From positions 1-45,689 of the forward strand of contig CAMZKE010000127.1 in assembly GCA_947311115.1 (NCBI GenBank): a DNA stretch of 45,689 bases, read 5' to 3'. The notes beneath the pieces were generated by a model. That model was not told the DNA's origin. It was given only the letters and a program-made list of their open reading frames with translations, and made no database searches. This stretch comes from an uncultured Bacteroidales bacterium (lineage in GTDB: Bacteria > Bacteroidota > Bacteroidia > Bacteroidales > JAFGXI01). How positions within the stretch are numbered: position 1 is the first letter of the stretch; the number at the start of each line of letters is the position of its first letter. The position numbers and the translations under genes are program-made. Below, piece by piece: positions 4,241 to 44,774 of the stretch.

Positions 4241-7200
4241 ATGAGTAAATTTTACATTCTATTTTTCGTATTGCTTTCATTTAACATATTTTCACAAACA
4301 GGTACAGAGTTTTGGCTTGCCCCACCTAATGTTACTGATGATCACCGTTCGTCAGATAGATTCAAATATTATTTGAATTTAACAGGTTTAGATGCAGATG
4401 CTGTTTTGCATATTTGGCAGCCTGCAAATACATCAACCGGTTATGATACAACTTTTACGCTGTTGGCAAACACATCGCAAAAAATATATTTAGGGCATAA
4501 AACGGCTCAATTAGAAACCAAACCAACTAATACGGTATTAAATACAGGTTTGTTGATAGAGAGCACAAATGGCGAAAAAATATCTGCATATTACGAATAT
4601 GATAATCGAAATAATCCCGATATTTTTGCTCTAAAAGGTGCAAATTCATTAGGAAAAGAGTTTTATATTCCCTTGCACAATCACTCTCCTTGGCATAATC
4701 ATAATTTTACAAACGATTTGGCTTATGCATCGTTTGATATTGTTGCTACAGAGGATAATACAACAGTTTTGATTTTTCCTTCAAATGATGTTGATGGTCA
4801 CCCAGCACTACAGCAATTTTCTGTAACGCTTAATAGAGGCGAAACATATTCTTGTGGTTTTACGGGTACAAATCATATTGAACCTTTAAATCACCCTTAT
4901 GGTTCGTCAGTAACATCTGATAAGCCAATAGCCATTTCAATAAAAGATGACTCAGACCATGGAATTCATGGTTGTTATGATTTACTTGGCGATCAAATTG
5001 TGCCTGTTGATATTGTAGGTACAGAATATATTGTTGTTAGGGGAGGGTTAAATAGTAATGAAGATGAGAGTTTTTTCGTTCTTGCTACTCAAAATAATAC
5101 ACAAATAACAATAACTAACGACGATGAGGTTTTAACCAAAACACTTTTTGCAGGTGAAACTTTTAGGTACGAAATTGCAGAAGATGTTTCCGGTTCGGCA
5201 ACATCACGAGCATACAATTATATTCAAGCAAGTGCACCTGTATATTTATCGCATGTCGCAGGTTTTGGATGCGAAATGGGACAAGCTTTATTGCCTCCTC
5301 TTAACTGTGCCGGTTCTGAAAAAGTTAGTTTTGTAAGGTCAACCAACGAAGGGTTTTTCTTAACCTTATTGGTTAAAACACCTTCAATTGGCGATTTTAC
5401 AATAACTCCGTCTTCTGCTCAAGCAGCTATTGATGGAGCTACTTGGGTAACTGTACCTGGTACAGGAGGCGACTGGAGTGCAACTTCGATACAATTTAAT
5501 ACAACTGAAATACCTGTAGGAGGAGCAAACAGACTTGTAAACTCAACCGATGTTTTTGCAATGGGTTTAATAAATGGAGGTAGCACCTCAGGTTGTCGTT
5601 ATGGCTATTTTTCTGAATTTGTAGCAAAAACTGTAACCGATGCAGGTGTCGATTTTACTATTTGTGCGAACTCAACAGCAACTCTTAACGGAAATGTACA
5701 CGGTGGAGCAACTACAGGAATATGGACTACATCAGGTACAGGTAATTTTGATGATGCTACAAGTTTTAATGCTGTTTATACACCAAGTACTAATGATATT
5801 AATGCGGGAAGTGTTACTTTAACTTTAACCTCAACAGGTATTTGTTTTCCTGAATCTGATGATATGCTACTTTCTTTCGACCCTGCTCCAACAGTTGATG
5901 CCGGTCTTGACCAAACGGTTTGTGCCAATAATGTTGATGCTAACCTAAACGGAATAATAACTGTTGCTGATGGCGGTATTTGGACAACCTCAGGTGATGG
6001 TAGTTTCGATAATGCAGCAATAATGAATGCAGTATATACCGCAGGCCCAACTGATATTGCTAATGGAACAGTTCGTCTATATTTAACAACTACAGGAAAT
6101 TACAGTTGTAATGCTGAGGTAGATAGTCTTGATATAACTATAACACCTGCACCAACAATTAATGCAGGAATAAATCAAACAGTTTGTTCAAATAACCCAA
6201 CTATAACTCTAAATGCCACAACAAATGGCGTGCCTACAGGTGCAATTTGGAGTGGAGGGAATGGTTCTTATAATCCGGGTAGTAATTTCTTAAATACAGA
6301 TTATACTCCTTCCGGAGTTGAAGTTTCAAATGGAAGTTTAACTTTAACAGTTACTACAACAGGAAGTACAGGTTGTACCGAAGTTTCCGATAATATTTCA
6401 ATAACATTTTCTCCTTCGCCTATTGTAAATGCTGGTGCAGACCAAATAAAATGTGCAAATAATGAAGCAACAGTACTAAACGGTTCAATATCGGGTGGTG
6501 CAAGTGCAGGTGTTTGGACAAATGGTAACGGTACTTTTGTTGTTGATGATACCGATTTGGGAGCAACATACACTCCAACACCTACTGAAATAGCAAACGG
6601 AAGTGTTACCCTTACTTTAACAAGTACCGACCACGGTACAAATGGATGTAATGCCGAAAGCGATCAAATGACAATTAACTTTACACCAAAACCTACTGCT
6701 GATGCGGGTTCTGACCAAACAGTGTGTGCAAATAATTCTGATGTAAGTCTATCAGGAAGTATTACTGTTGCTTCAGGAGGAATATGGTCAAGTAGCGGAA
6801 ACGGTATTTTTTCATCAACAACAAATTTAACAACTACATACTACCCTTCAGTAGCAGATATAACAGCGGGTTCTGTTAAAATTTATTTAACAACTACCGG
6901 AAATGCTTCTTGTAATGAGGTTAAAGATAGTATGATAGTTACAATAACATCTGCACCAACAGTTAATGCAGGAGCCGATTTCTCAGTTTGCTCAAATAAT
7001 GCAGATATTGTATTAAATGCTAATGTAACAGGAGCAACAAATTGGCAATGGACAGGTGGTGCTGGTGCGTGGAACCCGGGTAATACTGCTTTAAATACAA
7101 CTTATTCGCCAAGTGCTGCCGAAATTGCAAATGGCGATATAACTCTAACACTTACGACTACAGCACAAGGTAATTGTAATGCTGTTAGCGACGATATTAA

Positions 7201-10200
7201 AATTATATTTACGCCTAAACCTGATGTTAATGCAGGTGTTGACCAAGTAAAATGTGAAAATAATCCTACAACTATACTTAATGGTACTATTTCAGGTGGT
7301 GCAAGTGCAGGTATTTGGACAAATGGAAACGGTACTTTTGTAAATAATGATACTGAATTAGGAGCAACATATACTCCTACCGCAACTGAAATATCAAACG
7401 GAAGTGTTACTCTAACATTAACTAGTACCGACCATACAACAAATGCTTGTAATGCAGAGAGTAGCCAAATGACAATTTCATTTACAAGTGCACCAACAGT
7501 TGATGCCGGAACAGATATAGATGTATGTCAAAATAATGCAACTGCAATATTAAGCGGTTCGTCAAGTACAGGTTCAGGTAGTTGGAGTGGAGGTACAGGA
7601 ACATTTGCTAATTCAAATAGTTTAAGTACAACATATACCCCATCATCTACCGAAATAGCAAATGCTACACCTGTAACGCTTACATTATCAACAACAGGTA
7701 ATGGCTCTTGCTTGGCAGAAACCGACCAAGTTATAATAAGTTTTGACCCTAAACCAATAGCAGATGCGGGTAATCCACAAATATCTTGTGCAAATAATCC
7801 TATTGTAACTTTGCAAGGCTCAGTAACAAATGCAAATGGTGGTTCTTGGTCTGGTAGTTCAGGCTCTTTTAGTCCAAGCAATACAGCATTAAATGCAACT
7901 TTTTTGCCAACAGCAGCTGATATTGCAGCAGGAGGAGTAAATTTAACTTTAACTGCAATAGGAATTAATGGTTGTAACGATGAAACAGATATTTTTAATT
8001 TAACAATAGTTCCTTCTCCAATTGTTGATGCCGGAGTTGACGATTATTATTGTAAAAATAATGCAACAATTAGTTTAAATGGTGCAGTAACAAATGCTAC
8101 CGGCGGAACTTGGTCTGGTGGTTTAGGTATATATGGCGATGCAAATTCGCTAAATACTACATATCAACCAACACAAGATGAATTAGATGATGGGTTTGTT
8201 ACTCTGTATCTTACATCAACAGGTAATGGTACATGTAATGCTGTTCAAGATGAAGTAACTTATACATTTACTGATGCTCCTATTGTTGATGCTGGTATAA
8301 CACAAAGTGTTTGTGCAAATAATTCTGACGTTTCTTTAAATGGAACTGTTACTGTAGCAACAGGTGGTGTTTGGAGCGGCGGACTAGGAAATTATTCTCC
8401 TACTGATACAACTCTTAACGCTGTTTATCACCCAACTGCAAGCGAAATAGCTAATCAATCAGTAACTTTAACTCTTACATCAACCGGAAATGGTTCGTGC
8501 AATTTAGTTAGCGATAATGTAACAATTAATATTGCACCTTCTCCAATTGTAGATGCAGGTATTGATGTACACTCGTGTTATAATAGTCCAATAGCAACAT
8601 TAAATGGTACTGTAACAAATGCCTCGGGTGGTATTTGGAGTGGTGGTGCAGGAACTTTTTCACCAAGTAATACAACTCTAAACGCTGATTATACACCTAC
8701 TCAAACAGAAATTGACGCAGGTATTATTAAACTATATCTTACATCTGCAAGTGGAAATTCTTGTAATCCGGTTGTTGATAGTATGAATATTATTATTGAC
8801 CCTAAGCCAATTGTAAATGCCGGAATTGACCAGTTTATTTGCTCAAATAATGCAGGAACAGTACTAAATGGTTCAGTTAGTTTGGCTTCAGGTGGACAAT
8901 GGAGTGGCGGTGCAGGTTCTTATTCTCCAAACAATTCGGTTTTAAATGCAATTTATACTCCTACTCAAGGTGAAATTAATGCAGGTTTTGTTGATTTAAT
9001 TTTAACATCAACCGGAAATGGTTCTTGTATTCCTGAAGACGATACAATGAGAATTAATTTTACACCAGCTACAACAGTTGATGCAGGAACAAACTTTGAG
9101 GTTTGTGCAAATAATAATCAAATTGATTTAGTAGGTACAATAACTGTAGCAACTTCAGGAACTTGGAGTGGTGGTGCCGGTATTTATAATCCTAATCCTA
9201 ATAGTTTAACAACAAGTTATACACCAACACCAACTGAAATATCAAACGGAAGTGTTGTACTTTGGTTAACTTCAACAGGAAACGGAAATTGTTCGGCTGT
9301 TCAAGATAGTATTGCAGTAACAATTAACCCATCGCCTATTGTTGATGCCGGAACAGACCAAAATGTTTGTGTTGATGCATTAACTGTTAATTTAAATGGT
9401 TCAGTTTCAGGAATTACAACTACAGGTGTTTGGACAAGCTCCGGTACAGGAACATTTTCAGATAATACAGCATTAAACACCTCTTATACATGCAGTACTG
9501 CCGATTCAATAGTAGGGAGTGTTACTTTAACACTTACATCAACAAATAATGATGTTTGCTTAAGTGAATCGGATAATATGGTTTTATATATTTTACCTGC
9601 AGGAATAGCAAATGCTGGTACAGACCAAACTGTTTGTGCAAATAATGCAGAAATATTATTAAATGGAACAGTAACAGGAGGAGCATCAAGTGGTGTTTGG
9701 AGTACAAGTGGTACAGGAATATTTTTACCAGATGAAAATACTCTTAATGCAACTTATATACCAAGTGCAAATGATACTGCAACGGGATTGGTAACATTAA
9801 CTCTTACAGCAAATTCTTGTAATTTATCAGAAAGTTCTATTGATATAACCATAACCCCTGCTCCGTATATTAATGCTGGACCAGACCAAATTGTATGTGT
9901 TGATAATTTAAGCATACAATTAGATGGTACTGCTTATGGTGCTTCAAATACAGCAGAATGGACAAGTCTAGGGACAGGCGTTTTTGTTCCTAATAATACA
10001 AGCTTAGATGCTATTTATCACGCAAGTGCACAAGATAGTATTAACGGACAAGTTGTGTTATTATTAAGTTCTACTAATTATGGAACTTGTAATCTTGAAA
10101 GAGATACAATGATAATTACAATTTCGCCGGCAGGTATTGTTGATGCAGGTCCTGACCAAACTCATTGTGCAAATAATACAAATATTGAATTAAATGGTTT

Positions 10201-12982
10201 AATTAGTGGTGGTGCATCAGAAGGGCAGTGGGCAACATCGGGCTCAGGATACTTTTCGCCTAGTCCTGATAGCTTGCATGTATTTTACACTCCGGGTGCA
10301 GGAGATATTACAGCAGGTACAGTAACATTAGTATTGTCAGCAACAAACTCTTGTAATTTATCGTTCGATGCGGTTACAATTACTTTAACACCAGCTCCAA
10401 CAGCCAATGCCGGTATTGACCAAGCTTTATGTGCTAATAATTCTGATTTAGTATTAAATGGTTCGGTAAATCTTGCAACAGGTGGCGAATGGACAACTAC
10501 AGGTTTTGGTAGTTTTGCATCATCAACAAGTTTAAATACAATATATACTCCAAGTGTTGCTGATATTACAGCGGGTGGTGCTGAAATAATTCTTACAACA
10601 ACCGGTAATGGTGGGTGTTTGCCTGTAAGCGATACAATGATTTTTGATATTACTCCAAGTCCTGTGGTTGATGCCGGTAGTAATCAGTCAGTTTGTTCAT
10701 CGGCTACAAGTACAAATTTATATGGAAATGTAAGTGGAAGTACAACTACAGGTGAGTGGTCGCTTGTTGGAGCTGCAAGTGGAACTTTTGATGATATAAA
10801 TGATTTAACAACTACATATATTTTTAGTGGTGCAGATATTGCATCAGGGACAATTCAGTTGGCTTTAACATCGACAAATAATGGAAGTTGTAATCCTGTA
10901 AGCGATACAGTAACTATAAACTTTGGTAATAGTACTTTTGCTTATGCAGGTGTTGACCAAGTTATTTGTGGCGATAATTTAAATGTTAATTTAAATGGAA
11001 TTGTTTCCGGAGGTGCTTCAACCGGTTATTGGTCTGCTATTAATACAAATCAAGGTAGCTTTACTCCTGATTCAACTAATTTGAATGCAATATATAATTG
11101 TAGCGAGCAAGATTCTTTAAACGGTTTTGTAAATTTAGTTTTAACAACTACAAATAACGGTGGGTGTACAGCGGGAACAGATACTATGCTTGTTACTATA
11201 ACTCCGGCACCAATTATAATTGCAGGAGCCGATATTGAAGCATGTAAGGGTGTTGATTCGGTTGCAATTTCAGGCACAATACAAAATGTTAATAATATAA
11301 TTTGGACAACATCAGGCTCGGGTATATTTACTCCAAGTGCTGATAGCTTAAATGCTTATTATCTGCCAAGTACAGCCGATACAATAATTGGTAGTGTAAC
11401 ATTAACACTAAGTTCAGAAAATAGTGGTATTTGTAATGAGGTTTCTGATCAAGTAGATATATTGTTTACCATACCTTTAAATGTAGATTTTGGTGTGGGC
11501 TTAGCTTGTTTAAACCAATTGGTTAGTTTTGCTGATAGTACTACTGTTTCAGCAGGAAGTATCGATAGTTGGTATTGGGAGTTTGGCGATGGTTCTACCG
11601 ATAATAACCAAAACCCAACTCATACTTATACAACAGATGGAAATTTCACGGTTACATTAACCGTAGAGTCAAGCTTAGGTTGTACATATCAAACATCAAA
11701 AACAATAACAGTGTTTAAGTCACCAGCTGCTGATTTTACATATGTAAGTAATTGTTATTTAGATGAGGTTGAATTTACAGATGCTTCAATAGCAAATGCA
11801 GGAACAATAAACTCGTGGTATTGGACTTTTGTTGATACTGTTCATTCAACAACACAAAACCCATCGTTTTTATTTAATAATAGTGGAACATATACTGTAA
11901 TTTTATCTGTTCAAAATTCTATAGGTTGCTCGTCTTCGGTAAATTTACCTGTTGATGTTTATACAAAACCTATTGCAGATTTTACTTACGTTTACGATTG
12001 TGCAAATTCTATTGTTGCATTTACTGATGTATCTACTTCGCAAGGTAATGATATTAATAGTTGGTATTGGAATTTTGGAAGTGGACAACTATCTAGTCAA
12101 GAAGAGAATCCTATATATAATTATTGGACACTTGGAAGTCATAATGTTATGTTAATTTCTGGTACATCAGTAAATTGTATTGACACTATTTATAAGGATA
12201 TTTATTTACAGAATATTATAGCTGATTTTAATTTTAATAATGAATGTGCTTACGATACATTTAAGTTTAATAATTTATCATATGCAAATGGTGATACAAT
12301 TAGTAGTTATTATTGGGATTTTGGTGATGGAATATTTTCTACTGAAGAAAGCCCTGAACATTTATTTAATATTTCAGGTTTTTATAATGTTTCACTAACA
12401 ATTAATTCAAATTATGGTTGTACTGACGTAAGGAGTTTTGTAACGGAAGTTTATCCAATACCTTCTGCCGGTTTCGATTATTATGCTGATGAATATTTGG
12501 TAAATAGTACAATTCAGTATAACGATTTGTCAAGTGGTTCGGAAGATTGGCAATGGAGTTTTGGTGATGGAATAACTTCAACTTTGCAAAATCCACAACA
12601 CATATATAATATTGAAGGAACTTACACAATATCGCAAGTGGTTTCAAATCAATATACTTGCTTAGATACAGCAGAGGCTAATATAACAATTGAGCCGGGT
12701 GTAGAAATATTACCGCCAAAATTACCTACAGCGTTCTCGCCAAACGGCGATGGAATGAATGATATATATTACCCTCGAGGAGGACCTTTCAAAACTATTG
12801 ATTTTAGGATTTATAACTCGTGGGGTGTTGAAATTTACAGTACACAAATACTTGGTGAAGGTTGGGATGGTACATACAAAGGTGTTGACCAACAGGTAGG
12901 TACTTATGTGTGGACAGTAAAAGCGGTTACTGTAAAAGGCGAAGAATTTATTAAAACAGGAGATGTTACATTAATTAGATAA
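4241..12982 (+). CDS. Giant T9SS-secreted adhesin-like protein, copy 1 (IgGFc-binding-like, 22 repeats, 5 PKD, type B sorting domain)
   Basis: A 2913-aa secreted or surface protein. The signal peptide (1-18, ending NIFSQ) is followed by an IgGFc-binding-protein-like N domain (about 19-466; GTEFWLAPP, NSLGKEFYIP, ASFDIVATED, DKPIAISIKDD). Twenty-two repeats of about 89 aa follow (467-2415), then five PKD domains (2416-2824; W-Y-W-x-FGDG and NPxHxY motifs), then a gliding-motility-associated C-terminal domain (about 2826-2913; LPTAFSPNGDGMND, GWDGTYKG). That last domain is a T9SS type B sorting signal. PKD 2 and 3 have lost the FGDG loop (FVDT, FGSG). The next gene, 28 bp downstream, is a full-length paralog, and a PorP/SprF gene ends the operon. 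An adhesive surface role is inferred from architecture. The ligand is unknown. Confidence 0.93.
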   Translation: MSKFYILFFVLLSFNIFSQTGTEFWLAPPNVTDDHRSSDRFKYYLNLTGLDADAVLHIWQPANTSTGYDTTFTLLANTSQKIYLGHKTAQLETKPTNTVLNTGLLIESTNGEKISAYYEYDNRNNPDIFALKGANSLGKEFYIPLHNHSPWHNHNFTNDLAYASFDIVATEDNTTVLIFPSNDVDGHPALQQFSVTLNRGETYSCGFTGTNHIEPLNHPYGSSVTSDKPIAISIKDDSDHGIHGCYDLLGDQIVPVDIVGTEYIVVRGGLNSNEDESFFVLATQNNTQITITNDDEVLTKTLFAGETFRYEIAEDVSGSATSRAYNYIQASAPVYLSHVAGFGCEMGQALLPPLNCAGSEKVSFVRSTNEGFFLTLLVKTPSIGDFTITPSSAQAAIDGATWVTVPGTGGDWSATSIQFNTTEIPVGGANRLVNSTDVFAMGLINGGSTSGCRYGYFSEFVAKTVTDAGVDFTICANSTATLNGNVHGGATTGIWTTSGTGNFDDATSFNAVYTPSTNDINAGSVTLTLTSTGICFPESDDMLLSFDPAPTVDAGLDQTVCANNVDANLNGIITVADGGIWTTSGDGSFDNAAIMNAVYTAGPTDIANGTVRLYLTTTGNYSCNAEVDSLDITITPAPTINAGINQTVCSNNPTITLNATTNGVPTGAIWSGGNGSYNPGSNFLNTDYTPSGVEVSNGSLTLTVTTTGSTGCTEVSDNISITFSPSPIVNAGADQIKCANNEATVLNGSISGGASAGVWTNGNGTFVVDDTDLGATYTPTPTEIANGSVTLTLTSTDHGTNGCNAESDQMTINFTPKPTADAGSDQTVCANNSDVSLSGSITVASGGIWSSSGNGIFSSTTNLTTTYYPSVADITAGSVKIYLTTTGNASCNEVKDSMIVTITSAPTVNAGADFSVCSNNADIVLNANVTGATNWQWTGGAGAWNPGNTALNTTYSPSAAEIANGDITLTLTTTAQGNCNAVSDDIKIIFTPKPDVNAGVDQVKCENNPTTILNGTISGGASAGIWTNGNGTFVNNDTELGATYTPTATEISNGSVTLTLTSTDHTTNACNAESSQMTISFTSAPTVDAGTDIDVCQNNATAILSGSSSTGSGSWSGGTGTFANSNSLSTTYTPSSTEIANATPVTLTLSTTGNGSCLAETDQVIISFDPKPIADAGNPQISCANNPIVTLQGSVTNANGGSWSGSSGSFSPSNTALNATFLPTAADIAAGGVNLTLTAIGINGCNDETDIFNLTIVPSPIVDAGVDDYYCKNNATISLNGAVTNATGGTWSGGLGIYGDANSLNTTYQPTQDELDDGFVTLYLTSTGNGTCNAVQDEVTYTFTDAPIVDAGITQSVCANNSDVSLNGTVTVATGGVWSGGLGNYSPTDTTLNAVYHPTASEIANQSVTLTLTSTGNGSCNLVSDNVTINIAPSPIVDAGIDVHSCYNSPIATLNGTVTNASGGIWSGGAGTFSPSNTTLNADYTPTQTEIDAGIIKLYLTSASGNSCNPVVDSMNIIIDPKPIVNAGIDQFICSNNAGTVLNGSVSLASGGQWSGGAGSYSPNNSVLNAIYTPTQGEINAGFVDLILTSTGNGSCIPEDDTMRINFTPATTVDAGTNFEVCANNNQIDLVGTITVATSGTWSGGAGIYNPNPNSLTTSYTPTPTEISNGSVVLWLTSTGNGNCSAVQDSIAVTINPSPIVDAGTDQNVCVDALTVNLNGSVSGITTTGVWTSSGTGTFSDNTALNTSYTCSTADSIVGSVTLTLTSTNNDVCLSESDNMVLYILPAGIANAGTDQTVCANNAEILLNGTVTGGASSGVWSTSGTGIFLPDENTLNATYIPSANDTATGLVTLTLTANSCNLSESSIDITITPAPYINAGPDQIVCVDNLSIQLDGTAYGASNTAEWTSLGTGVFVPNNTSLDAIYHASAQDSINGQVVLLLSSTNYGTCNLERDTMIITISPAGIVDAGPDQTHCANNTNIELNGLISGGASEGQWATSGSGYFSPSPDSLHVFYTPGAGDITAGTVTLVLSATNSCNLSFDAVTITLTPAPTANAGIDQALCANNSDLVLNGSVNLATGGEWTTTGFGSFASSTSLNTIYTPSVADITAGGAEIILTTTGNGGCLPVSDTMIFDITPSPVVDAGSNQSVCSSATSTNLYGNVSGSTTTGEWSLVGAASGTFDDINDLTTTYIFSGADIASGTIQLALTSTNNGSCNPVSDTVTINFGNSTFAYAGVDQVICGDNLNVNLNGIVSGGASTGYWSAINTNQGSFTPDSTNLNAIYNCSEQDSLNGFVNLVLTTTNNGGCTAGTDTMLVTITPAPIIIAGADIEACKGVDSVAISGTIQNVNNIIWTTSGSGIFTPSADSLNAYYLPSTADTIIGSVTLTLSSENSGICNEVSDQVDILFTIPLNVDFGVGLACLNQLVSFADSTTVSAGSIDSWYWEFGDGSTDNNQNPTHTYTTDGNFTVTLTVESSLGCTYQTSKTITVFKSPAADFTYVSNCYLDEVEFTDASIANAGTINSWYWTFVDTVHSTTQNPSFLFNNSGTYTVILSVQNSIGCSSSVNLPVDVYTKPIADFTYVYDCANSIVAFTDVSTSQGNDINSWYWNFGSGQLSSQEENPIYNYWTLGSHNVMLISGTSVNCIDTIYKDIYLQNIIADFNFNNECAYDTFKFNNLSYANGDTISSYYWDFGDGIFSTEESPEHLFNISGFYNVSLTINSNYGCTDVRSFVTEVYPIPSAGFDYYADEYLVNSTIQYNDLSSGSEDWQWSFGDGITSTLQNPQHIYNIEGTYTISQVVSNQYTCLDTAEANITIEPGVEILPPKLPTAFSPNGDGMNDIYYPRGGPFKTIDFRIYNSWGVEIYSTQILGEGWDGTYKGVDQQVGTYVWTVKAVTVKGEEFIKTGDVTLIR
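5639..11485 (+). repeat. Array of 22 coding repeats (about 89 codons each) in giant protein 1
   Basis: Each unit starts (D/N)AGxDQxxCxNN, continues with L-N-G, a W-S/T-G-G or W-T-S-S-G loop, LNxxYxPsxxEIxnGxVTLTLTST, and ends GNGxCNxxxDxxxIxxxPxPxV. Two cysteines per unit, near positions 9 and 72, are nearly always kept and could form one disulfide in each Ig-like module. Units 2-3-4 resemble units 5-6-7 in order, so at least one three-unit block was duplicated. At the DNA level the units are clearly diverged and are not identical tandem repeats. Confidence 0.9.
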
Positions 12983-13010
12983 ACTTGTATAATTTATAAA
13001 ACAAAGACAG

Positions 13011-16000
13011 ATGAAAAAAATATATATCATAATTTTTATTTTACTTACAGTTTCAGTGTTTTCGCAAACAGGTACAAGTTTCTGGTTTGCACCACCAAAT
13101 ATTACCGATGATTATAATGCAGCCGAAAATACTGCCGTATATTTGAATATTTCAGCTTATGGTGTAGCTGCAAATGTTTCTATAAGTGGTCCTGGTATAG
13201 GTACAACTATTAATGTAACTGTTCCGGCAAACTCAAATGTAAAACAAGATTTAAGTTCTTATGTGGCTACATTAGAAACATCGCCTACCGATAATATTTT
13301 AAATACAGGTTTACATATTACAAGCGATTATAAAATCTCGGTGTTTTATGAGTATAATAATTCGCAAAATCAAGAAATTTTCTCATTAAAAGAGGCTAAT
13401 TCGCTTGGAAAAGAATTTTATATACCTTTTCAAAACAATAGTAATAATTCTAATTTAAGTTTTACCGATAAAGCTTATGCTTCGTTCGATATTGTTGCAA
13501 CAGAAGATGCTACAACGGTAAATATTTTTCCTTTTAGAGATATTGATGGTCATAGCGGCAATGTACAATATTCAATTACATTAAATCAAGGGCAAACTTA
13601 TTCCGGTGGTTGGACAGGTACAAATTATACTGCAACTTCAACTCATCCGCAAGGAAGTGTTGTAACATCTGATAAGCCAATTGCAATTACTACAAAAGAT
13701 GATGCTGTTACTCATTCAAGCGATGGTGTTAATGGCGATTTGTTGGGCGACCAAATTATCCCTATTGATGATATAGGTACAGAATATATTGTTGTAAAAG
13801 GAAAATTAGATGCATTAGCCGAAGAATCTTTTTATATTTTGGCAACTCAAAATGCAACTAAAGTATATATTAATGGGAGCTCAACTGAAGTTGTTTCATT
13901 ATTTAGAGGCGAAACATATCAATATGATATTTCTGCCGCAGGAAACGATTTTACATATATTGAAACATCGGCTCCAGTGTATTTAACTCACGTAACAGGT
14001 GTTGGTAAGGAGTTGGCACAGGCTATATTACCTCCAATAAATTGTACAGGTTCTGATGAGGTTTCGTTTGTACGTTCGTCAAGCGATAGTTTTTATTTGT
14101 CTTTGATAGTTAAAGCCGGTTTTGAAACAGATTTTGATATTTCTGACGCAACAATAAAATCCGCAGTTAATGCAAATAACTGGACAACTGTTACCGGAAC
14201 AGGTGGCGTTTGGGTTGCTAAACTATTAGATTTATCGGCATCGGTAACCGAAGATTTAGCTTATGTTTTAAAGAATGATAGTAGTATTTTTATAATGGCA
14301 ACATTAAATGGAGGTGCAGGTTCAGGAGCTCGTTATGCCTATTTTACCGATTTTGTATCGCAAACTTATGTTGATGCAGGTAACGATACTACAATTTGTG
14401 CTAATTCTGTATTAGCATTAACAGGGTCAGTTACAGGTAGTGTAAAAACAGGAAAATGGTCGTCATCAGGTTCCGGCTTATTTGACGATATTAACGATTT
14501 GAATACAAATTATACACCAAGTCCATCGGATAAAGCCGCAGGAAGTGTAGTGCTAACTTTAACATCAACAGGAGTTTGTACACCAGTTGACGATAGCTTT
14601 ACACTAACTTTTGACCCTGCACCAACTGTTGACGCAGGAAGCGACCAAACAGTGTGTGGAAATAATGCCGAGCTAACTTTAAATGGTAGTTACACAATAG
14701 CAACAGGCTGTAATTGGTCAACTTCTGGTGATGGTGCTTTTAATGATGCTACATCTACAAATGCAACATATACACCGGGTTCAAACGATATATTAAATGG
14801 TGCGGTTAGGTTATACTTAACAACTACAGGAAATGCAACTTGTAATGCCGAGGTTGATAGTATGGACGTAACAATAACTCTTGCACCAACTATTGATGCC
14901 GGAGCAGACCAAACTGTATGTTCAAATAATGCAGATGTAACATTAAATGCAATAACTAATGGTGTTCCAACAGGCGGACAATGGTCAAATGGTTTAGGAA
15001 CATATAATCCGGGAAGTGGAGCGTTAAATACATTATACACTCCTGACCCAACAGAAATATCAAACGGAAGTTTAAAACTTTATGTAACTACGCAAGGAAG
15101 TACAGGTTGTATTGAGGTTAAAGATAGTGTAGTTATTACTTTTTCGCCTTCGCCTGTTGTTAATGCCGGTGTTGACCAAGTAAAATGTGCCAATAATACG
15201 GTAACAGTATTAAATGGCTCGGTTACAGGTGGAGCAAGTACAGGGGTTTGGACAAACGGTTTAGGCACTTTTGTTGTAGATAATAATGATTTAAACGCAA
15301 GTTATTCGCCAACTCCAGCCGAAATAGCTAATGGAAGTGTTGAATTATATTTAACTAGTACAGATCACGGAACTAATGGGTGTAATTTAGATAAAGATAC
15401 AATGCTAATTAGTTTTACTCCTGCTCCAACAGTTGAAGCCGGAAATGACCAAACAGTTTGTGCAAATAATTCTGATGTTAGCTTATCCGGCTCAATAACA
15501 GTAGCAACAGCTGCTACTTGGACAACAACAGGGTCAGGAATTTTTGATAATGCAGGAAGTTTAAGTACAATATATCATCCTTCAGTAAATGATGCTATAG
15601 CCGGAGAAGTAAAAATATATTTAACAACAACAGCCGGCAACGGAACATGTTTTGCTGTTAAAGATAGTATGATGATTACAATTACTGCGGCACCAACAGT
15701 TAATGCAGGAATAGATTATTCGGTATGTGCAAATAATGCTGATATTACACTTAATGGAACAAGTACATTAGCAACCGCATGGCAATGGTCAGGTGGAGCA
15801 GGTTCTTGGAGTCCGGGAAGTACTGCACTTAATACAATTTACACACCAACTTCTACAGAAATATCCAACGGAAGTATAACTTTAACTTTAGCAACTACAA
15901 GTCAAGGAACTTGTAATGCCGTTAGCGATGATATTACAATAAACTTTACACCTGCACCTATTGTAGAGGCGGGGCAAGACCAAGTAAAATGTGCAAATAA

Positions 16001-19000
16001 TGCTGTTACAGTATTAAATGGTTCGGTGTCAGCAGGAGCAAGTGCAGGTACTTGGTCAAACGGACTTGGTACTTTTGTTGTTGATAATAACGATTTAAAT
16101 GCATCATATACACCAACTACCAATGAAATTGCAAATGGAAGCGTAAAGTTATATCTAACAAGTTCAGACCATGCAAATAACGGATGTAGTGCGGTAAAAG
16201 ATTCAATGTTAATATCTTTTACAACAGCACCAACAGTTGATGCTGGGGCTGCAGAAATATTTGTTTGTCAGAATAATCCTGTGGCTAACCTTTCCGGAAG
16301 TGTTACAGCTCCGGCAACAGGAGGTGTATGGAGTGGTGGAGCCGGTACATTTGGTTCAACTAGTGATTTAGTTACTACCTATACTCCAACAGCAACTGAA
16401 ATATCTGATGCAAATCAAATAATTTTAACATTAACTACAACAGGAAGCTCAACTTGTAATGAGGTATCAGACCAAGTTGTTATAAAATTTGAGACAAGTC
16501 CTATTGTTGAAGCAGGTGCACCACAAACTTCTTGTGCAAATAATCCTACCGTTACTTTACAGGCAAGTGTTGTAAATGCTGCAGGTGGTATTTGGGATAG
16601 AACAAACTCTTATTTTAGTACAACTAATACCGATTTACTTGCCGATTTTACTCCTGATGCAACAGATATAGCAAATAACGGAGCAACACTTACTTTATCA
16701 TCTACAGGAAATGGCAACTGTAATTCAGAGTCTGATATTTTTCAGCTTACTATTGTTGATGCTCCAATTGTTGATGCAGGTGTTGATGATACAGTATGTG
16801 CAAATAATGCGGTTATAACTTTAAGCGGTTCGGTAATAAATGCAACAGGTGGAGTTTGGTCCGGAGGTTTAGGTAGCTATGGTGATGCAAATTCGCTAAA
16901 TACTACTTATTTACCATCTCAAGCTGAAATAACAAACGGTTCGGTTACTTTAACTTTAACATCAACCGGAAATGGAACTTGTAATGCGGTACAAGATAAT
17001 GTTGTTTTTGTAATAACTCCTGCCCCTACAGCTTTTGCCGGAGTTGATGATGAGGTTTGTGCAAATAATTCAGATGTTGCTTTAATAGGAGTATTAACAG
17101 GTGTAACACAAGGGACTTGGTCAGGAGGATTAGGTACTTTTACACCTAGTGAAGATTCACTTATAACTACTTATCATCCTCATGCAAGTGAAATAACAGC
17201 ACAAGCTGTTAGCTTAATTTTAACTACTGTTAATAATGGTTTGTGTAATGCAGTTACCGATACTATTGATATTACAATAGCACCATCTCCTATAGTTGAG
17301 GCTGGTGCCGATATTCATACTTGTTACAATAATCCAACAGCATCGCTTAATGGAAGTGTTACAAATGCAGGAGGAGGTGAATGGTCAGGAGGTACAGGCA
17401 TATATAGTACAAGTAATGCCGATTTAAATGCAGATTATACACCATCACAAACAGAAATTGATAATGGTTTTGTGATATTATATTTAACATCAACAGGAAA
17501 TGGAACTTGTAATGCAGTTGTTGATAGTGTTAGAATAATTATTGACCCAAAACCCATTGTTGATGCAGGAACAGACCAAACTGTTTGTGCAAATAATTCT
17601 GATGTTGTATTAAACGGTTATGTTGATGTAGCCGGTGGTGGTGAATGGACAAGTGGTTTAGGAGTGTTTACTCCGGATAATACTGTGTTGAATGCAACTT
17701 ATACCCCAACACAAAACGAAATAGATAATGGCTTTGTAGATTTAATTTTAACAACAACCGATAATGATAATTGTTTACCAGAGGACGATACGGTTAGAAT
17801 AACATTTACACCTGCTCCTACGGTTGATGCCGGCTTGCCTTTTGAAGTTTGTGAAAATAATAGTCAAATTGATTTAAATGGAGTTGTAAACATTGCATCA
17901 GGAGCTTATTGGTCTGGAGCAGACGGTATTTACACCCCTGATTCTACAAGTTTAACAGCTTCGTATATACCTACAGCAACCGAAATATCAAACGGAAGTA
18001 TAATGTTTATACTAACTTCTACAGGAAATGGTACTTGTTTGTCTGTTAGCGATAGTGTAGAGGTTACTATAAACCCATCGCCAACAGTAGAGGCAGGAAA
18101 TAATATTGATGTATGTGTTGATGATTTATCGGCTGATTTATCAGGTGCGGTTACAGGAATTACGAATACAGGCGTATGGTCAACAAACGGAACGGGTACT
18201 TTTGTGCCAAATCCAAATACATTAAATGCATCGTATGTATGCAGTTCTGCTGATTCAACAAACGGTAGTGTAGTATTAACACTAACATCAACAAATAATG
18301 ATGTATGTTTGCCTGTTAGCGATAGTTTAATTGTATCGATAGTGCCTGCCGGTCAAGCCGATGCAGGAAACGACGAAACTGTTTGTGCAAATAATTCCGT
18401 TATCTCATTAAACGGAGTCATTAGTGGTGGTGCAACCGGAGCATCTTGGTCAACAAATGGTTCAGGAGTATTTTTACCTGATGTTAATACATTAAATGCT
18501 TCATATATACCAAGTGCAGGCGATACGCTTACAGGTTCTGTTCAATTAACTTTAACAGCTAATTCATGTAATTTAGCAACAAGTTCAATAGATATAACTA
18601 TAACTCCAGCTCCTTACGTTAATGCAGGTGCCGACCAAATTGTTTGTGTTGATAATTTAGATGTACAATTAGATGGTACTATCTATGGTGCTACAACAAC
18701 AGGAATATGGTCAACAACAGGAACCGGTACTTTTGACCCCGATAATACAACTATTGATGCAATTTATCACGCAAGTGCACAAGATAGTATTGATGGTAAT
18801 ATAATCTTATATTTAGATGCAACAAATATTGGAAATTGTAATGCAGTTAGAGATTCAATGAATTTAACTATTTCTCCTGCGGGAATTGTTGATGCAGGCG
18901 ATGAGCAAACATTATGTTCAAATAGTGCAGAAATATCCTTAAATGGTTCAATAACAGGTGGTGCTACCGAAGGTTTATGGAGTACAAGCGGTACAGGAAC

Positions 19001-21725
19001 TTTTAGCCCTGATGCTACTGATTTAAACGCAACATATACTCCTAGTGCAGCCGATTTAACTAGTGGCTCGGTAACTTTGGTGTTAACAGCTACAAATTCT
19101 TGTAATTTTGCTTTCGATGCTTTTGATGTGCAGTTTACTCCATCTCCTACAGTTAATGCAGGAAACGATACAAGTTTATGTGCAAATTTATCCGAGCTCC
19201 CTCTAGTTGGCTCTTATACAATTGCTACAGGTTGTGAGTGGACTAGTTCAGGTTCAGGAATTTTTACTCCAAGTACTACAGATTTTAATGCTACTTACAC
19301 TCCAAGTGCAGCTGATATTTCGGCAGGAGGAGTAAATTTAATATTAACTACTACTGGTAATGGTGCTTGTAATTCGGTTAGCGATACTTTATATTTTGAA
19401 ATAACTCCAAGTCCTATAGTAAACACCGGTCAAGACCAAACTGTATGTAATACAGCTACCGAAACACAAGTTTACGGATATGTCTCAGGAGGTGCAACAA
19501 CAGGTATTTGGACTGCTATAAATGGTGCAGATGGATATTTTAGCGATTCAACAGAATTAAGCCCAATTTACCATTTTGGAACTAATGATTATACTGCCGG
19601 AAGTGTTCAATTAGTATTAACATCAACAAATAATGATAATTGTTTGGCAGAAACCGATACAATTACATTAACTTTTGGTAACAGTACCTTTGCTTATGCA
19701 GGTGTTGACCAAGAAATATGTGGCGATAATTTATTAATAAATCTATCTGGTATTGTTTCCGGAGGTACTACTACAGGTACGTGGACATCAAGTGGAACAG
19801 GAACTTTTGTGCCTAATGCTGATGCTTTAAATGCCGGTTATATTTGCAGCTCGCAAGACTCGTTAACAGGATTGGTTGATTTTATACTAACTACAACAAA
19901 TAATGGCGGTTGTAATGCAGGAACAGATACTATGAACTTAACAATTTTACCTGTACCGGTAATTAATGTAGGTAACGACATTGAGGTTTGCAAAGGTACA
20001 GATTCTATTGCGGTAGCCGGAACGGCAGTAAATGTAAACAGTGTACTTTGGACAACAAATGGAACGGGTACATTCTCGCCTAACGATACAAGTTTAAGTG
20101 CGTATTATATTCCTAGTGCAATTGATACGGTTTTAGGAACAGTAACTTTATCATTAGAAAGTGTAAATAGTGGCTTATGTAATGAGGTTTCCGATAATTT
20201 ATTATTAACTTTTACAGTACCTTTATCGGTTAATTTTGGAAGTAGTTTAGCTTGCGAAAATCAAGCTGTTAATTTTACAGATAGCACAGTTGTTTATGCC
20301 GGAGGTATTGCAAGTTGGTACTGGGAATTTGGTGATGGAGATGTTGATAATAATCAAAATCCATCTCATACATATCTTACAGCCGGCACTTACACGGTAA
20401 CACTAACTGTTGAATCTAATTTAGGTTGTTCTTATTCAACAACAAAAAACACAACGGTTTTTGCATCGCCAACAGCGGGTTTTGCCTCTACATCAAGTTG
20501 TTATTTAGATGAGGTTGTATTTGCCGATACATCAATAGCTAACGAAGGGGCGTTGGTTTCGTGGAATTGGAATTTTGGCGATACAATCACTTCAAATATT
20601 CAAAACCCAACTCATACTTATGGTAATAGTGGAAATTATATGGTTAGTTTAACAGTAAGTAACTCAAATAATTGTAGTGCAACTGCAAGTAATACTGTAA
20701 ATGTTTATGCAAAACCAATTTCTAATTTTGCGTATGCGTATAATTGTGTTGATGGGCTTGTTAGTTTTACTGATGCGTCATCAACCGATAACGATACAAT
20801 TAATTTCTGGAATTGGAATTTTGGCGATGGTAGTGTAAGTACAGAGCAGAATCCTGATTATACATTTGCTGATGTAGGAGCACAAACGGTTTATTTAATT
20901 TCAGGAACTTCGGCTAACTGTAGCGATACTATTACAAAACAAGTTTACTTACAGTCGATAACAGCAAATTTTAATTTTAATGCAAAATGTTTGTATGATA
21001 GTGTTAGCTTTACCGATTTATCTTATGCAAATGGAGATACAATTTCTACATATTTATGGATATTTGATGATGGAAATACATCAAGTGATAAAAATCCATC
21101 GCATTTATATTCAACCGCTGATGATTATACAGTTTCGTTAGTTGCTGAAACAAATTCGGGTTGTAAAGATACTATTTCAAAACAAGTAGAAACTTATCCT
21201 GTACCAACAGCAAGTTTCGATTATACAGCCGATAAATATGAAGTAAATGAGATTGTTACATTTACCGATATGTCGGAGGGAGCAAATAATTGGCAATGGA
21301 GTTTTGGTGACGGAATAACAGTTACAATTCAAAACCCGCAACATATATTTAATACAGCCGATACTTATACAATTATTCAGGCTGTATCTAACGAATATGG
21401 TTGTGTTGATACTGCTGATGCGACAATAACAATTAATGATGCAATATTTATTTATCCTCCAAAATTACCTACGGCATTTTCTCCTAATGGTGATGATATG
21501 AATGATATATTTTATCCTCGTGGCGGGCCATTTAAATCGGTAGATTTTAGGGTTTACGATTCGTGGGGTAATGCAATATACAGTACAACTACAATTGGCG
21601 AAGGTTGGGACGGAACATACAAAGGTGTTGAACAAAAAGTTGGTGTTTATGTATGGACTTTAAAAGCTGTAACCATTGACGGTGAAGAGTATATTAAAAG
21701 AGGAGATGTAACTTTAATAAGGTAG
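13011..21725 (+). CDS. Giant T9SS-secreted adhesin-like protein, copy 2 (paralog of copy 1)
   Basis: A 2904-aa protein with the same plan as its upstream neighbour: signal peptide (1-18, ending SVFSQ), IgGFc-binding-like N domain (to about 454; GTSFWFAPP, NSLGKEFYIP, ASFDIVATED), 22 repeats (455-2407), five PKD domains (2408-2815, with the FGDG loop kept better than in copy 1) and a C-terminal type B T9SS sorting domain (about 2816-2904; LPTAFSPNGDDMND, GWDGTYKG). The first gene's stop lies 28 bp upstream and the PorP/SprF gene 38 bp downstream, so all three are probably co-transcribed. Repeat n of this protein matches repeat n of copy 1 in its peculiarities, which shows duplication of a whole gene. 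It is probably exported through the outer membrane and displayed on the surface. Whether the two copies have different ligands cannot be told. Confidence 0.93.
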   Translation: MKKIYIIIFILLTVSVFSQTGTSFWFAPPNITDDYNAAENTAVYLNISAYGVAANVSISGPGIGTTINVTVPANSNVKQDLSSYVATLETSPTDNILNTGLHITSDYKISVFYEYNNSQNQEIFSLKEANSLGKEFYIPFQNNSNNSNLSFTDKAYASFDIVATEDATTVNIFPFRDIDGHSGNVQYSITLNQGQTYSGGWTGTNYTATSTHPQGSVVTSDKPIAITTKDDAVTHSSDGVNGDLLGDQIIPIDDIGTEYIVVKGKLDALAEESFYILATQNATKVYINGSSTEVVSLFRGETYQYDISAAGNDFTYIETSAPVYLTHVTGVGKELAQAILPPINCTGSDEVSFVRSSSDSFYLSLIVKAGFETDFDISDATIKSAVNANNWTTVTGTGGVWVAKLLDLSASVTEDLAYVLKNDSSIFIMATLNGGAGSGARYAYFTDFVSQTYVDAGNDTTICANSVLALTGSVTGSVKTGKWSSSGSGLFDDINDLNTNYTPSPSDKAAGSVVLTLTSTGVCTPVDDSFTLTFDPAPTVDAGSDQTVCGNNAELTLNGSYTIATGCNWSTSGDGAFNDATSTNATYTPGSNDILNGAVRLYLTTTGNATCNAEVDSMDVTITLAPTIDAGADQTVCSNNADVTLNAITNGVPTGGQWSNGLGTYNPGSGALNTLYTPDPTEISNGSLKLYVTTQGSTGCIEVKDSVVITFSPSPVVNAGVDQVKCANNTVTVLNGSVTGGASTGVWTNGLGTFVVDNNDLNASYSPTPAEIANGSVELYLTSTDHGTNGCNLDKDTMLISFTPAPTVEAGNDQTVCANNSDVSLSGSITVATAATWTTTGSGIFDNAGSLSTIYHPSVNDAIAGEVKIYLTTTAGNGTCFAVKDSMMITITAAPTVNAGIDYSVCANNADITLNGTSTLATAWQWSGGAGSWSPGSTALNTIYTPTSTEISNGSITLTLATTSQGTCNAVSDDITINFTPAPIVEAGQDQVKCANNAVTVLNGSVSAGASAGTWSNGLGTFVVDNNDLNASYTPTTNEIANGSVKLYLTSSDHANNGCSAVKDSMLISFTTAPTVDAGAAEIFVCQNNPVANLSGSVTAPATGGVWSGGAGTFGSTSDLVTTYTPTATEISDANQIILTLTTTGSSTCNEVSDQVVIKFETSPIVEAGAPQTSCANNPTVTLQASVVNAAGGIWDRTNSYFSTTNTDLLADFTPDATDIANNGATLTLSSTGNGNCNSESDIFQLTIVDAPIVDAGVDDTVCANNAVITLSGSVINATGGVWSGGLGSYGDANSLNTTYLPSQAEITNGSVTLTLTSTGNGTCNAVQDNVVFVITPAPTAFAGVDDEVCANNSDVALIGVLTGVTQGTWSGGLGTFTPSEDSLITTYHPHASEITAQAVSLILTTVNNGLCNAVTDTIDITIAPSPIVEAGADIHTCYNNPTASLNGSVTNAGGGEWSGGTGIYSTSNADLNADYTPSQTEIDNGFVILYLTSTGNGTCNAVVDSVRIIIDPKPIVDAGTDQTVCANNSDVVLNGYVDVAGGGEWTSGLGVFTPDNTVLNATYTPTQNEIDNGFVDLILTTTDNDNCLPEDDTVRITFTPAPTVDAGLPFEVCENNSQIDLNGVVNIASGAYWSGADGIYTPDSTSLTASYIPTATEISNGSIMFILTSTGNGTCLSVSDSVEVTINPSPTVEAGNNIDVCVDDLSADLSGAVTGITNTGVWSTNGTGTFVPNPNTLNASYVCSSADSTNGSVVLTLTSTNNDVCLPVSDSLIVSIVPAGQADAGNDETVCANNSVISLNGVISGGATGASWSTNGSGVFLPDVNTLNASYIPSAGDTLTGSVQLTLTANSCNLATSSIDITITPAPYVNAGADQIVCVDNLDVQLDGTIYGATTTGIWSTTGTGTFDPDNTTIDAIYHASAQDSIDGNIILYLDATNIGNCNAVRDSMNLTISPAGIVDAGDEQTLCSNSAEISLNGSITGGATEGLWSTSGTGTFSPDATDLNATYTPSAADLTSGSVTLVLTATNSCNFAFDAFDVQFTPSPTVNAGNDTSLCANLSELPLVGSYTIATGCEWTSSGSGIFTPSTTDFNATYTPSAADISAGGVNLILTTTGNGACNSVSDTLYFEITPSPIVNTGQDQTVCNTATETQVYGYVSGGATTGIWTAINGADGYFSDSTELSPIYHFGTNDYTAGSVQLVLTSTNNDNCLAETDTITLTFGNSTFAYAGVDQEICGDNLLINLSGIVSGGTTTGTWTSSGTGTFVPNADALNAGYICSSQDSLTGLVDFILTTTNNGGCNAGTDTMNLTILPVPVINVGNDIEVCKGTDSIAVAGTAVNVNSVLWTTNGTGTFSPNDTSLSAYYIPSAIDTVLGTVTLSLESVNSGLCNEVSDNLLLTFTVPLSVNFGSSLACENQAVNFTDSTVVYAGGIASWYWEFGDGDVDNNQNPSHTYLTAGTYTVTLTVESNLGCSYSTTKNTTVFASPTAGFASTSSCYLDEVVFADTSIANEGALVSWNWNFGDTITSNIQNPTHTYGNSGNYMVSLTVSNSNNCSATASNTVNVYAKPISNFAYAYNCVDGLVSFTDASSTDNDTINFWNWNFGDGSVSTEQNPDYTFADVGAQTVYLISGTSANCSDTITKQVYLQSITANFNFNAKCLYDSVSFTDLSYANGDTISTYLWIFDDGNTSSDKNPSHLYSTADDYTVSLVAETNSGCKDTISKQVETYPVPTASFDYTADKYEVNEIVTFTDMSEGANNWQWSFGDGITVTIQNPQHIFNTADTYTIIQAVSNEYGCVDTADATITINDAIFIYPPKLPTAFSPNGDDMNDIFYPRGGPFKSVDFRVYDSWGNAIYSTTTIGEGWDGTYKGVEQKVGVYVWTLKAVTIDGEEYIKRGDVTLIR
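14373..20231 (+). repeat. Array of 22 coding repeats (about 89 codons each) in giant protein 2
   Basis: Same unit as in copy 1, in the same order. Position-specific oddities are shared: unit 4 and unit 7 carry KCANN and a TNGLGTF/SNGLGTF loop, unit 12 has CYNNP, unit 17 has YHASAQDS, and unit 20 ends FGNSTF and leads into AYAGVDQ. Cysteine pairs are conserved as in copy 1. Confidence 0.9.
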
Positions 21726-21763
21726 TATAAAAAGGGAATTGAAAATATAAAAAGAAATATAAG

Positions 21764-22753
21764 ATGAAAAAGATGAGATATATTTATGTAGTTTTAATTA
21801 CGGTTATGAGTATAAGTTTAAATGCACAAGATGCACACTTATCTCAGTTTGATGCAATTCGTGTAAAGTTAAATCCTGCAGAGACAGGAATGTTTCAAGA
21901 TGCCGATTTTAGGGCAGGCACACAGTATAGAAATCAATGGGGTTCTATGGCAACAAAGTATTCAACAAGTGCATTAGCTTATGATATGCCAATAGGTAAA
22001 TCAGGTGCAGCCCAGTCGCGTTGGGGAGTAGGAGGGTATATGATTAACGATGATGCCGCAAAAGCATATAACGTGTTTAGTTTCGTTGTAGGAGGTGCGT
22101 ATCAAATAACAACTCCAAACGATAAGTATTTAATATCGGTGGGCTTGCAAGCAGGTATGATTTACAAAAATATTAAAGATAACTATTTGGTTTTCGATAA
22201 TCAATGGAGTGATGGAGCTTTTGATAGTGATATGCCTACAGGCGAAAATTTCTCTAACGATTATAAAATAATGCCGGAAGTTGTACTTGGCGTATATTAT
22301 CGAGGTATTGATAAAACAAAAAAGCTAAATCCTTATGCAGGACTTTCGTTTTTTCATATAACTAATCCTACAGAGAGTTTTATGGGAATGAAACAGTCTA
22401 AATTGCCATTACGCTATCAATTAAATGTAGGAACAAAGTATAAAATAAATGATAAAGTTACATTAGACCCTGGTGTTTTTGCACAATATCAGCGAAATGT
22501 GTACGAAATAAATGCAGGTTTACGTGGCTATTATAGATTTAATGAAATACTTAAATTAAATGCAGGTGGATATTACAGAATTAATGACGCTGCAATTATT
22601 TTACTTGGTTTATCATATAAAAACATAGATTTTAATATGACTTACGATATTAATACTTCATCGTTAAAACAATATACAAATGGTAAAGGAGCTTTTGAGT
22701 TTTCGCTTGTGTTTAGAGGAACAATGAAAAAAGTTTTTAATTCGTTGTTGTAA
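21764..22753 (+). CDS. PorP/SprF family type IX secretion system membrane protein
   Basis: A 329-aa outer-membrane beta-barrel protein. It has a signal peptide (1-22, ending SLNAQ) and the family N-terminus DAHLSQFDAIRVKLNPAETGMF, followed by GTQYRNQW, AYDMPIG and alternating strands to a C-terminal aromatic end. SprF and PorP proteins are accessory to the T9SS. SprF is needed for export of the giant adhesin SprB in Flavobacterium. Here the gene lies 38 bp after two giant proteins with type B sorting domains, so it is probably their dedicated partner. Hairpin 22766-22811 ends the operon. Confidence 0.92.
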   Translation: MKKMRYIYVVLITVMSISLNAQDAHLSQFDAIRVKLNPAETGMFQDADFRAGTQYRNQWGSMATKYSTSALAYDMPIGKSGAAQSRWGVGGYMINDDAAKAYNVFSFVVGGAYQITTPNDKYLISVGLQAGMIYKNIKDNYLVFDNQWSDGAFDSDMPTGENFSNDYKIMPEVVLGVYYRGIDKTKKLNPYAGLSFFHITNPTESFMGMKQSKLPLRYQLNVGTKYKINDKVTLDPGVFAQYQRNVYEINAGLRGYYRFNEILKLNAGGYYRINDAAIILLGLSYKNIDFNMTYDINTSSLKQYTNGKGAFEFSLVFRGTMKKVFNSLL

Positions 22754-38655: not shown

Positions 38656-39825
38656 ATGTTAAATATTGCACTTTTCGGTCCTCCCGGAGCAGGTAAAGGA
38701 ACACAATCGGAGTTTTTAATTAAGAAATATAAGTTGTTTTATATATCAACCGGCGATATGCTTCGTAAAGAAATTAAAGCAAAATCGAAATTAGGATTAG
38801 AAGCAAAATCTATAATTGAGCAAGGAGGTTTAGTTTCTGACGAAATTATTGTACAAATAATTGAGAAAACAATAAAAGATAATTCCGATGCAAACGGTTT
38901 TCTTTTTGATGGTTTCCCACGTACATATATTCAAGCATACATTTTAGAAGGTTTAATGATAAAGCTAAACACATCGTTAAATTGTTTAATAAATATTGAT
39001 GTGTCTGAAAAAGAATCGATAAAACGACTTTTAAATAGAGGTAAAACATCGGGCAGAAGCGATGATAACGAGAAAGTTATAAAAAACAGACTTAAAGAAT
39101 ACAAAGAGAAAACATTGCCTGTTCTTAATTTTTACAAAGAAAAAGGTAATTATATAAAAGTTAATGGCGAGCAAACTATTGAAGGAGTTACAAAAGATAT
39201 TGATAAAATAATTAAGCAAGAATTAAGCAAAAATTTGCTAAATATTGTAATATTTGGTTATCCGGGGTCGGGGAGAGGTTCGCAGGGTAGGGCGTTAGCC
39301 GAAAAATTTGGTTTAGAATATGTAGCAACAGGGCCAATGCTTGATGCCGAAATAAAAAAAGCATCAAAAATAGGAAAGCAAATAAAACAGATGTATGAAA
39401 ACGGACTTCTAGTACCCGATGAAATAGTTGTAAAACTTATTGAAGAAAAAATTGCAAACTCAGAAGATGTAAAGGGGTTTATTTTTAAAGGGTTTCCTCG
39501 TACTTTAGTGCAATCGTATATATTAGATGGTTTGCTTAAAAAACACAATTCTGCACTCTCTAAAATTATTGAAATTGAAGTGCCAACTCTTGAACTTATA
39601 CAGCGTTTAGATAAAAGAAGTAAAACCGATAATTGTATGCCTTACGATACAAGTACCGAAAAAATTGTTCAAAGGTTAAAAGACCACGAATTAAAAACAA
39701 TTCCGGTAATTGAAAAGTACAAACAATTACACGATGTTGTAGTTGTTGATGGTATGGATAGTTTTGAAAATGTTTTTAATAAACTTTCTGATGAAATAGA
39801 AAATGGTTTTAAAAATTTGAGGTAA
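38656..39825 (+). CDS. adk: Double-headed adenylate kinase: active N-terminal domain, degenerate C-terminal domain
   Basis: A 389-aa cytoplasmic protein, twice the usual length, made of two adenylate kinase domains. The first (1-190) has P-loop GPPGAGKGTQ (K14), AMP-binding TGDMLRKE, DGFPRT and the short LID TSGRSDDN, so it should interconvert ATP, AMP and ADP. The second (about 195-389) keeps the fold, but its P-loop is GYPGSGRGSQ with the key lysine replaced by Arg207. TGDMLR has become TGPMLD, DGFPRT has become KGFPRT, and the LID arginines are lost (KTDNCMPYD). The second half is therefore probably not catalytic and may be regulatory or structural. No other adk is in the window. The pentapeptide gene starts directly after the stop. 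Confidence 0.88.
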   Translation: MLNIALFGPPGAGKGTQSEFLIKKYKLFYISTGDMLRKEIKAKSKLGLEAKSIIEQGGLVSDEIIVQIIEKTIKDNSDANGFLFDGFPRTYIQAYILEGLMIKLNTSLNCLINIDVSEKESIKRLLNRGKTSGRSDDNEKVIKNRLKEYKEKTLPVLNFYKEKGNYIKVNGEQTIEGVTKDIDKIIKQELSKNLLNIVIFGYPGSGRGSQGRALAEKFGLEYVATGPMLDAEIKKASKIGKQIKQMYENGLLVPDEIVVKLIEEKIANSEDVKGFIFKGFPRTLVQSYILDGLLKKHNSALSKIIEIEVPTLELIQRLDKRSKTDNCMPYDTSTEKIVQRLKDHELKTIPVIEKYKQLHDVVVVDGMDSFENVFNKLSDEIENGFKNLR

Positions 39826-41054: not shown

Positions 41055-41080
41055 AATTAATGTGTAATAACTAATACCAA

Positions 41081-42070: not shown

Positions 42071-42125
42071 TTAGTAATACAAATCTTTTTTTATTTATCT
42101 TAGGGTAATTTTATTAAAGACAACT

Positions 42126-44771: not shown

Positions 44772-44774
44772 TTA

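Follow-up and report, generated by a model that had tools for sequence, protein, structure and literature searches.

A tandem pair of giant T9SS type B adhesins on rods of 22 Ig-like repeats with a three-repeat order, followed by one PorP/SprF gene, in a Bacteroidales bacterium

The window, the whole stretch of DNA analysed here (45,689 nucleotides), is an entire contig of an uncultured Bacteroidales bacterium (CAMZKE010000127.1), whose draft assembly comprises 3.53 Mb in 163 contigs. It harbours two giant T9SS type B adhesin genes in tandem, gene A (4241-12982, 2913 aa) and its paralogue gene B (13011-21725, 2904 aa), followed by a single gene encoding a PorP/SprF family outer-membrane shuttle/anchor (21764-22753; PF11751, TIGR03519). 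All three lie on the forward strand, with 28 bp between A and B and 38 bp between B and the PorP/SprF gene. Promoter and terminator scans of the A-B gap returned no more than expected by chance. The named relatives of the adhesin come chiefly from metagenome-assembled genomes of Bacteroidales. Elsewhere in the window, an adenylate kinase gene (38656-39825, 389 aa) encodes two tandem ADK domains, the second with an altered P-loop region (GYPGSGRGSQ). A FecI/FecR-type uptake operon (40491-45578) includes a possible sigma factor (ORF at 40491), FecR (41081-42070), a TonB-dependent receptor carrying a carboxypeptidase-regulatory domain (42126-44771) and a DUF4249 protein.

Both adhesins are built from the same modules. 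Gene A encodes a signal peptide-like start with an IgGFc_binding domain (PF17517; 4241-5635), 22 Ig-like repeats of ~88 aa each (5636-11476), five PKD domains (11477-12715) and a CHU_C/type B T9SS sorting domain (12716-12982). The corresponding parts of gene B lie at 13011-14369, 14370-20222, 20223-21458 and 21459-21725. The IgGFc_binding domain scored 114.5 bits in A and 116.7 bits in B, against a gathering score of 25.6; it lies in an N-terminal region of ~450 aa ahead of the repeats and is likely the tip of both proteins. The type B sorting domain (TIGR04131) scored 37.5 and 36.4 bits against a curated cutoff of 35, CHU_C was above its cutoff in both proteins, and Pfam found five PKD_4 stretches in each. 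A repeat HMM delimited exactly 22 contiguous repeats of 86-92 aa in each protein. Searched against Pfam, the repeat domain gave nothing above curated cutoffs, with weak matches to RNase_PH_C and DUF7507 in parts of the set. The protein lengths, repeat counts, PKD and sorting domains and single PorP/SprF partner given in a first-pass annotation of this DNA were thus all recovered; the N-terminal IgGFc_binding domain had been overlooked there. Within the rods, repeats 2-14 (A, 5894-9340; B, 14628-18086) form a zone with a period of three repeats, and repeats 15-22 (A, 9341-11476; B, 18087-20222) a fixed eight-repeat stem.

A and B are colinear. Their alignment covers 2894 residues with 60.6 % identity and a largest gap of 6 aa, in agreement with the earlier proposal that neither copy has gained or lost a repeat. 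Repeats of A found their best match in B at the same index in 20 of 22 cases, and those of B in A in 21 of 22; mean identity between A and B was 63 % for same-index repeats versus 43 % off index. A tree was built from the 110 repeats of five proteins, namely A, B and the orthologues of genomes G001, G003 and G005; 15 of the 22 indices (1 and 9-22) were monophyletic in it. Indices 2-8 did not form clean clades, owing to the likeness between triplets 2-3-4 and 5-6-7. Between repeats 4 and 7, identity is 79 % within A and 78 % within B, whereas across the proteins it is 75 % (A4-B4) and 62 % (A7-B7). Clustering by index, as had been predicted, thus holds overall (repeats 1 and 9-22), and the clustering within each protein that had been named as refuting it was seen locally, at repeats 4 and 7. 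Oddities had been reported at the same seven indices of both copies (4, 7, 12, 16, 17, 20 and 21); they were partly recovered, as the lengths of repeats 4 and 7 (91 aa) and 20 (92 aa) and a third cysteine in repeat 21. In both proteins the third cysteine occurs in repeats 15 and 21 (in A, 9341-9607 and 10943-11215), which are repeats -8 and -2 counted from the C-terminus, and at these positions it is present also in the G038 and G151 arrays, which differ in length. It could serve in cross-linking of chains.

The orthologues in G001 (same genus) and in G005 and G003 (other genera of the same family) are single copies in those genomes. Each has exactly 22 repeats and a PorP/SprF gene downstream, so the array is older than the duplication, as was suggested earlier from the colinearity of the two genes. 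The pair itself was thus absent from these three relatives; separate pairs of equal length were found in G048/G251 and G324 (see below). A is the nearer copy to the orthologues (63-65 % identity, versus 60 % to B), mainly because the tip of B evolves fast (tip branch length 0.83 in B versus 0.31 in A). A and B are sisters in a tree of PKD and sorting domains (88/87), and in a tree of repeats 9-14 they are split together from G005, G001 and G003 (96/97). Synonymous divergence between A and B (pS 0.56) is slightly below that between A and G005 (0.61), and a duplication within the window's own lineage is therefore favoured by these sequence comparisons. However, the placement of B is left unsettled by the trees of the tip (AU p 0.159) and the stem (AU p 0.066), and the duplication may thus alternatively have preceded the radiation of the family and been followed by losses. 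With dS near saturation, dN/dS between A and B was 0.33 overall, 0.12 in the sorting domain and 0.45 in the tip, so both copies look constrained. dN/dS was also calculated per repeat, with values that are rough, synonymous sites being near saturation (fourfold identity 0.47).

The repeat arrays display an order of three. In the growth zone, defined as repeats 2 to n-8 and comprising 179 repeats of 13 arrays, the best internal match lay exactly three positions away for 99 repeats (21.5 expected) and at a multiple of three for 127 (51 expected). Shuffling revealed an excess at lag three in 14 of 15 arrays (p 0.006 for A, 0.046 for B); an incomplete array of 44 repeats (L085) showed no lag-3 signal. 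Among periods of 2 to 7, three scored highest (z 17.8), followed by its multiple six (z 12.1), with the rest at 0.6 to 7.0, and the period persisted when one protein per group was used (z 8.6 and 5.5). When phase was counted from the C-terminus, 57 % of 1524 best matches in proteins of another group agreed in phase (null 33.7 %, sd 1.3 %), and the same phase was top-scoring in 53 of 54 cross-group protein pairs. Three repeat classes keep phase across families. Class-specific residues fall mostly in repeat columns 7-43, with a few more near the repeat end. Complete arrays have 16, 19, 19, 22 (the window's family), 25, 25, 31 and 31 repeats, all 1 mod 3. The sole complete array off this series has 62 repeats and belongs to a 6838-aa homologue in G094 (L093+L094, G094:C46); it was the only further complete array obtained in family and order searches for repeat homologues, most relatives' contigs breaking inside the array. 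Within one genus, the last 17 repeats of G151 (31 repeats) match the last 17 of G038 (19 repeats) one to one, and in another same-genus comparison the arrays of G263 and G331 are offset by three. Repeats 3 and 6 of the G001 protein (L076/L038) are 100 % identical in nucleotide sequence, the mark of recent conversion or copying over a distance of three.

Either an ancestral a-b-c triplet under purifying selection or a structural period would explain this three-repeat order. A strong contender, which we place only slightly short of probable, is that the period plays no structural part and merely survives from duplication of an ancestral triplet and from recombination that preserved the register. 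Recent near-identical pairs at lag three (3/6 in G001; 4/7 and 5/8 in L086) and same-genus arrays with a difference of 12 repeats or an offset of three point in this direction. However, fourfold-site identity at lag three is close to saturation (0.40 versus 0.38), so that most of the lag-3 signal is old, and the excess is nevertheless present at the amino acid level in most arrays. Furthermore, the phase of the classes is kept across families and the class residues are clustered in the first half of the repeat. These counterpoints still fit an old relic under purifying selection. A relic would touch a single step of the interpretation preferred below and is compatible with the remainder.

The genome of the bacterium also encodes the SprA/Sov translocon (PF14349, 571 bits, over cutoff). 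Identity between A and B is highest in the sorting domain (78 %, versus 51 % in the N-terminal tip domain). Among 55 homologue pairs, PorP identity tracks sorting-domain identity (r 0.76; partial r 0.72 with tip identity removed), a correlation to be read as description and not as a test, the pairs sharing proteins. In Flavobacterium johnsoniae type B C-terminal domains (CTDs) are paired with cognate shuttles of the SprF type, and closely similar CTDs show crosstalk (PMC12618676); PorP-like proteins anchor type B CTD cargo (PMC9143113). Given that divergence is lowest in the sorting domain, that PorP and CTD co-vary and that crosstalk of close CTDs has been published, A and B are likely both served by the PorP/SprF protein encoded at 21764-22753. 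Export with this one protein, as was put forward earlier, is thus likely; however, the genome encodes nine PorP-like proteins, and another of these could be the shuttle of B. The histories of tip and base are discordant in G003 and G151. When L089 (G151) is compared with L088 and with L077/L041 (G038), its base and PorP are those of its own genus and its tip is like that of another family, as if tips had been swapped through the repeat array.

Among other IgGFc-tip T9SS proteins of the order Bacteroidales, tandem pairs of equal length arose separately at least two more times beyond the lineage of the window. G048 (L128) has two IgGFc-tip T9SS proteins of 2016 and 1995 aa followed by one PorP gene, and G251 (L127), of the same genus-level lineage, has the orthologous pair. 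The pair of G324 (L126) measures 1996 and at least 1870 aa, the second member being truncated where the extracted sequence ends. Members of these pairs share 43-50 % identity with few or no large gaps besides the cut ends, and have PKD domains without the 22-repeat rod. Every pair groups with itself in the tip tree, apart from A and B, which indicates separate duplications. As in A and B, conservation within the G048 pair is highest in the sorting domain (74 % versus 46-51 %). The recurrence of equal-length twins with one shuttle makes a functional role of the pairing more probable.

An AlphaFold2 model of five repeats (pLDDT 83) consists of chained beta-sandwich domains. Its top matches in the PDB were fragments of the grappling-hook protein GhpA of Aureispira sp. 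CCB-QB1 (9flp, 9flv, 9flw and 9fly), with Z scores of 11-15, most over 315-399 residues at 4.0-5.4 Å and 16-20 % identity, and well separated in rmsd from animal Ig chains. GhpA is also T9SS cargo and, according to a later paper, forms a heptamer whose monomer spans the filament. All five modelled domains match it in a row; however, A and B share only this 16-20 % identity with it in the structural match and have half the length. A sequence profile of the 44 repeats, searched against solved structures, found no GhpA chain up to E 10. The predicted likeness lies in the construction of the rod and does not amount to membership. Modelling of the tip gave low confidence (pLDDT 62), with E 1e-4 and TM 0.13 for its best Foldseek match. 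A plasmid search gave one match, of 27 %, in Persicobacter. SprB/SprF of F. johnsoniae likewise combines a giant repetitive surface protein and a type B CTD with PorP/SprF directly downstream (PMC9143113; PMC12618676), whereas the present locus has two colinear adhesins per PorP and an IgGFc_binding tip. Periscope proteins (Sgo_0707, SasG and Rib) share a putative binding tip, a rod of tandem domains and a height set by repeat number, but have near-identical repeats whose number differs from strain to strain (PMC8201768). The present repeats, in contrast, are diverged, with 43-44 % amino acid identity within an array, and their count is fixed across genera: 22 in five proteins of three genera, not the highly identical and strain-variable repeats of a periscope. 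The A-band of titin is composed of 7- and 11-domain super-repeats. It resembles the rods in having Ig-like domains in a fixed higher-order order, but is eukaryotic and matched to the thick filament (PMC7427331; PMC10665226).

On balance we find it fairly probable that the locus holds old tandem copies on equal-length rods with diverged tips, one PorP/SprF and a rod of three repeat classes. One T9SS type B adhesin gene would have given rise to A and B by an old tandem duplication. Each product would be a single-chain fibre whose IgGFc_binding tip is carried by 22 rod-forming Ig-like domains, every one with two conserved cysteines, followed by the five PKD domains and, at the C-terminus, the sorting domain. 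Both would cross the SprA/Sov translocon and be collected and anchored by the neighbouring PorP/SprF. The rod length would be inherited, placing the two tips at equal height, and change would be concentrated in the tip, most of all that of B. The rod would consist of three classes in fixed a-b-c order plus the fixed eight-repeat stem, and arrays would change in steps of three, as is seen in most homologues, presumably for a structural reason. Judged from sequence, the most likely function of A and B is to present two unlike binding tips on stalks of the same length. The parts, a T9SS type B adhesin and PorP/SprF, are ordinary; the three-repeat order is unexpected.

The equal arrays had initially been attributed to selection on total length, which is an over-reading. 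Partnerless orthologues also hold 22 repeats. Adjacent repeats within A and B share 55 % nucleotide identity and the longest exact match between any two repeats has a median of 10-11 nt, so slippage should be rare. In other adhesins, variation in repeat number tracks repeat identity (PMC8201768). As 22 repeats are also found without a partner and slippage should be rare, length selection is not necessarily required for the equal lengths of A and B. The same data would fit plain redundancy, in which the duplicate was kept by chance or dosage and equal length follows from the lack of slippage between diverged repeats. This appears unlikely, since both frames are open and constrained across near-saturated synonymous divergence, the tip diverges faster than the base and the arrangement recurs in other families.

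Somewhat more doubtful is a heteromeric fibre, also raised in the first-pass annotation, in which A and B would lie in register in a multi-stranded filament whose assembly enforces equal repeat number. Consistent with it are the separate equal-length pairs in the lineage of the window, G251/G048 and G324, the match of the five-repeat model to GhpA (Z 12-15), described as heptameric, and the class-specific residues in columns 7-43, which could form a lateral contact face. However, single-copy orthologues hold 22 repeats without a partner, and inheritance alone gives equal length. A more specific form, with A and B as two chains of a GhpA-like filament of matched length and the a-b-c unit as a ruler for which both partners need the same repeat number, is a still longer shot. 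If such a ruler existed, three domains would correspond to one turn or lateral contact, and array changes would be viable only in threes. An artefact of short-read assembly, in the tandem pair or in the repeat counts, is hardly credible: the draft has 163 contigs and many relatives' contigs end inside arrays, but A and B repeats share only ~67 % nucleotide identity with few exact matches above 25 nt, making collapse or chimera unlikely, and three other genomes likewise have 22 repeats.

How PorP/SprF proteins select their cargo could be tested in nature on the recurring tandem pairs with a single shuttle. Giant bacterial adhesins are usually viewed as freely changing in length. In contrast, the repeat rod described here has a count that is constant across genera, grows by threes in relatives and contains three domain classes whose phase does not shift between families. 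Together these features hint, in a way that can be tested, at a bacterial fibre with a structural ruler.
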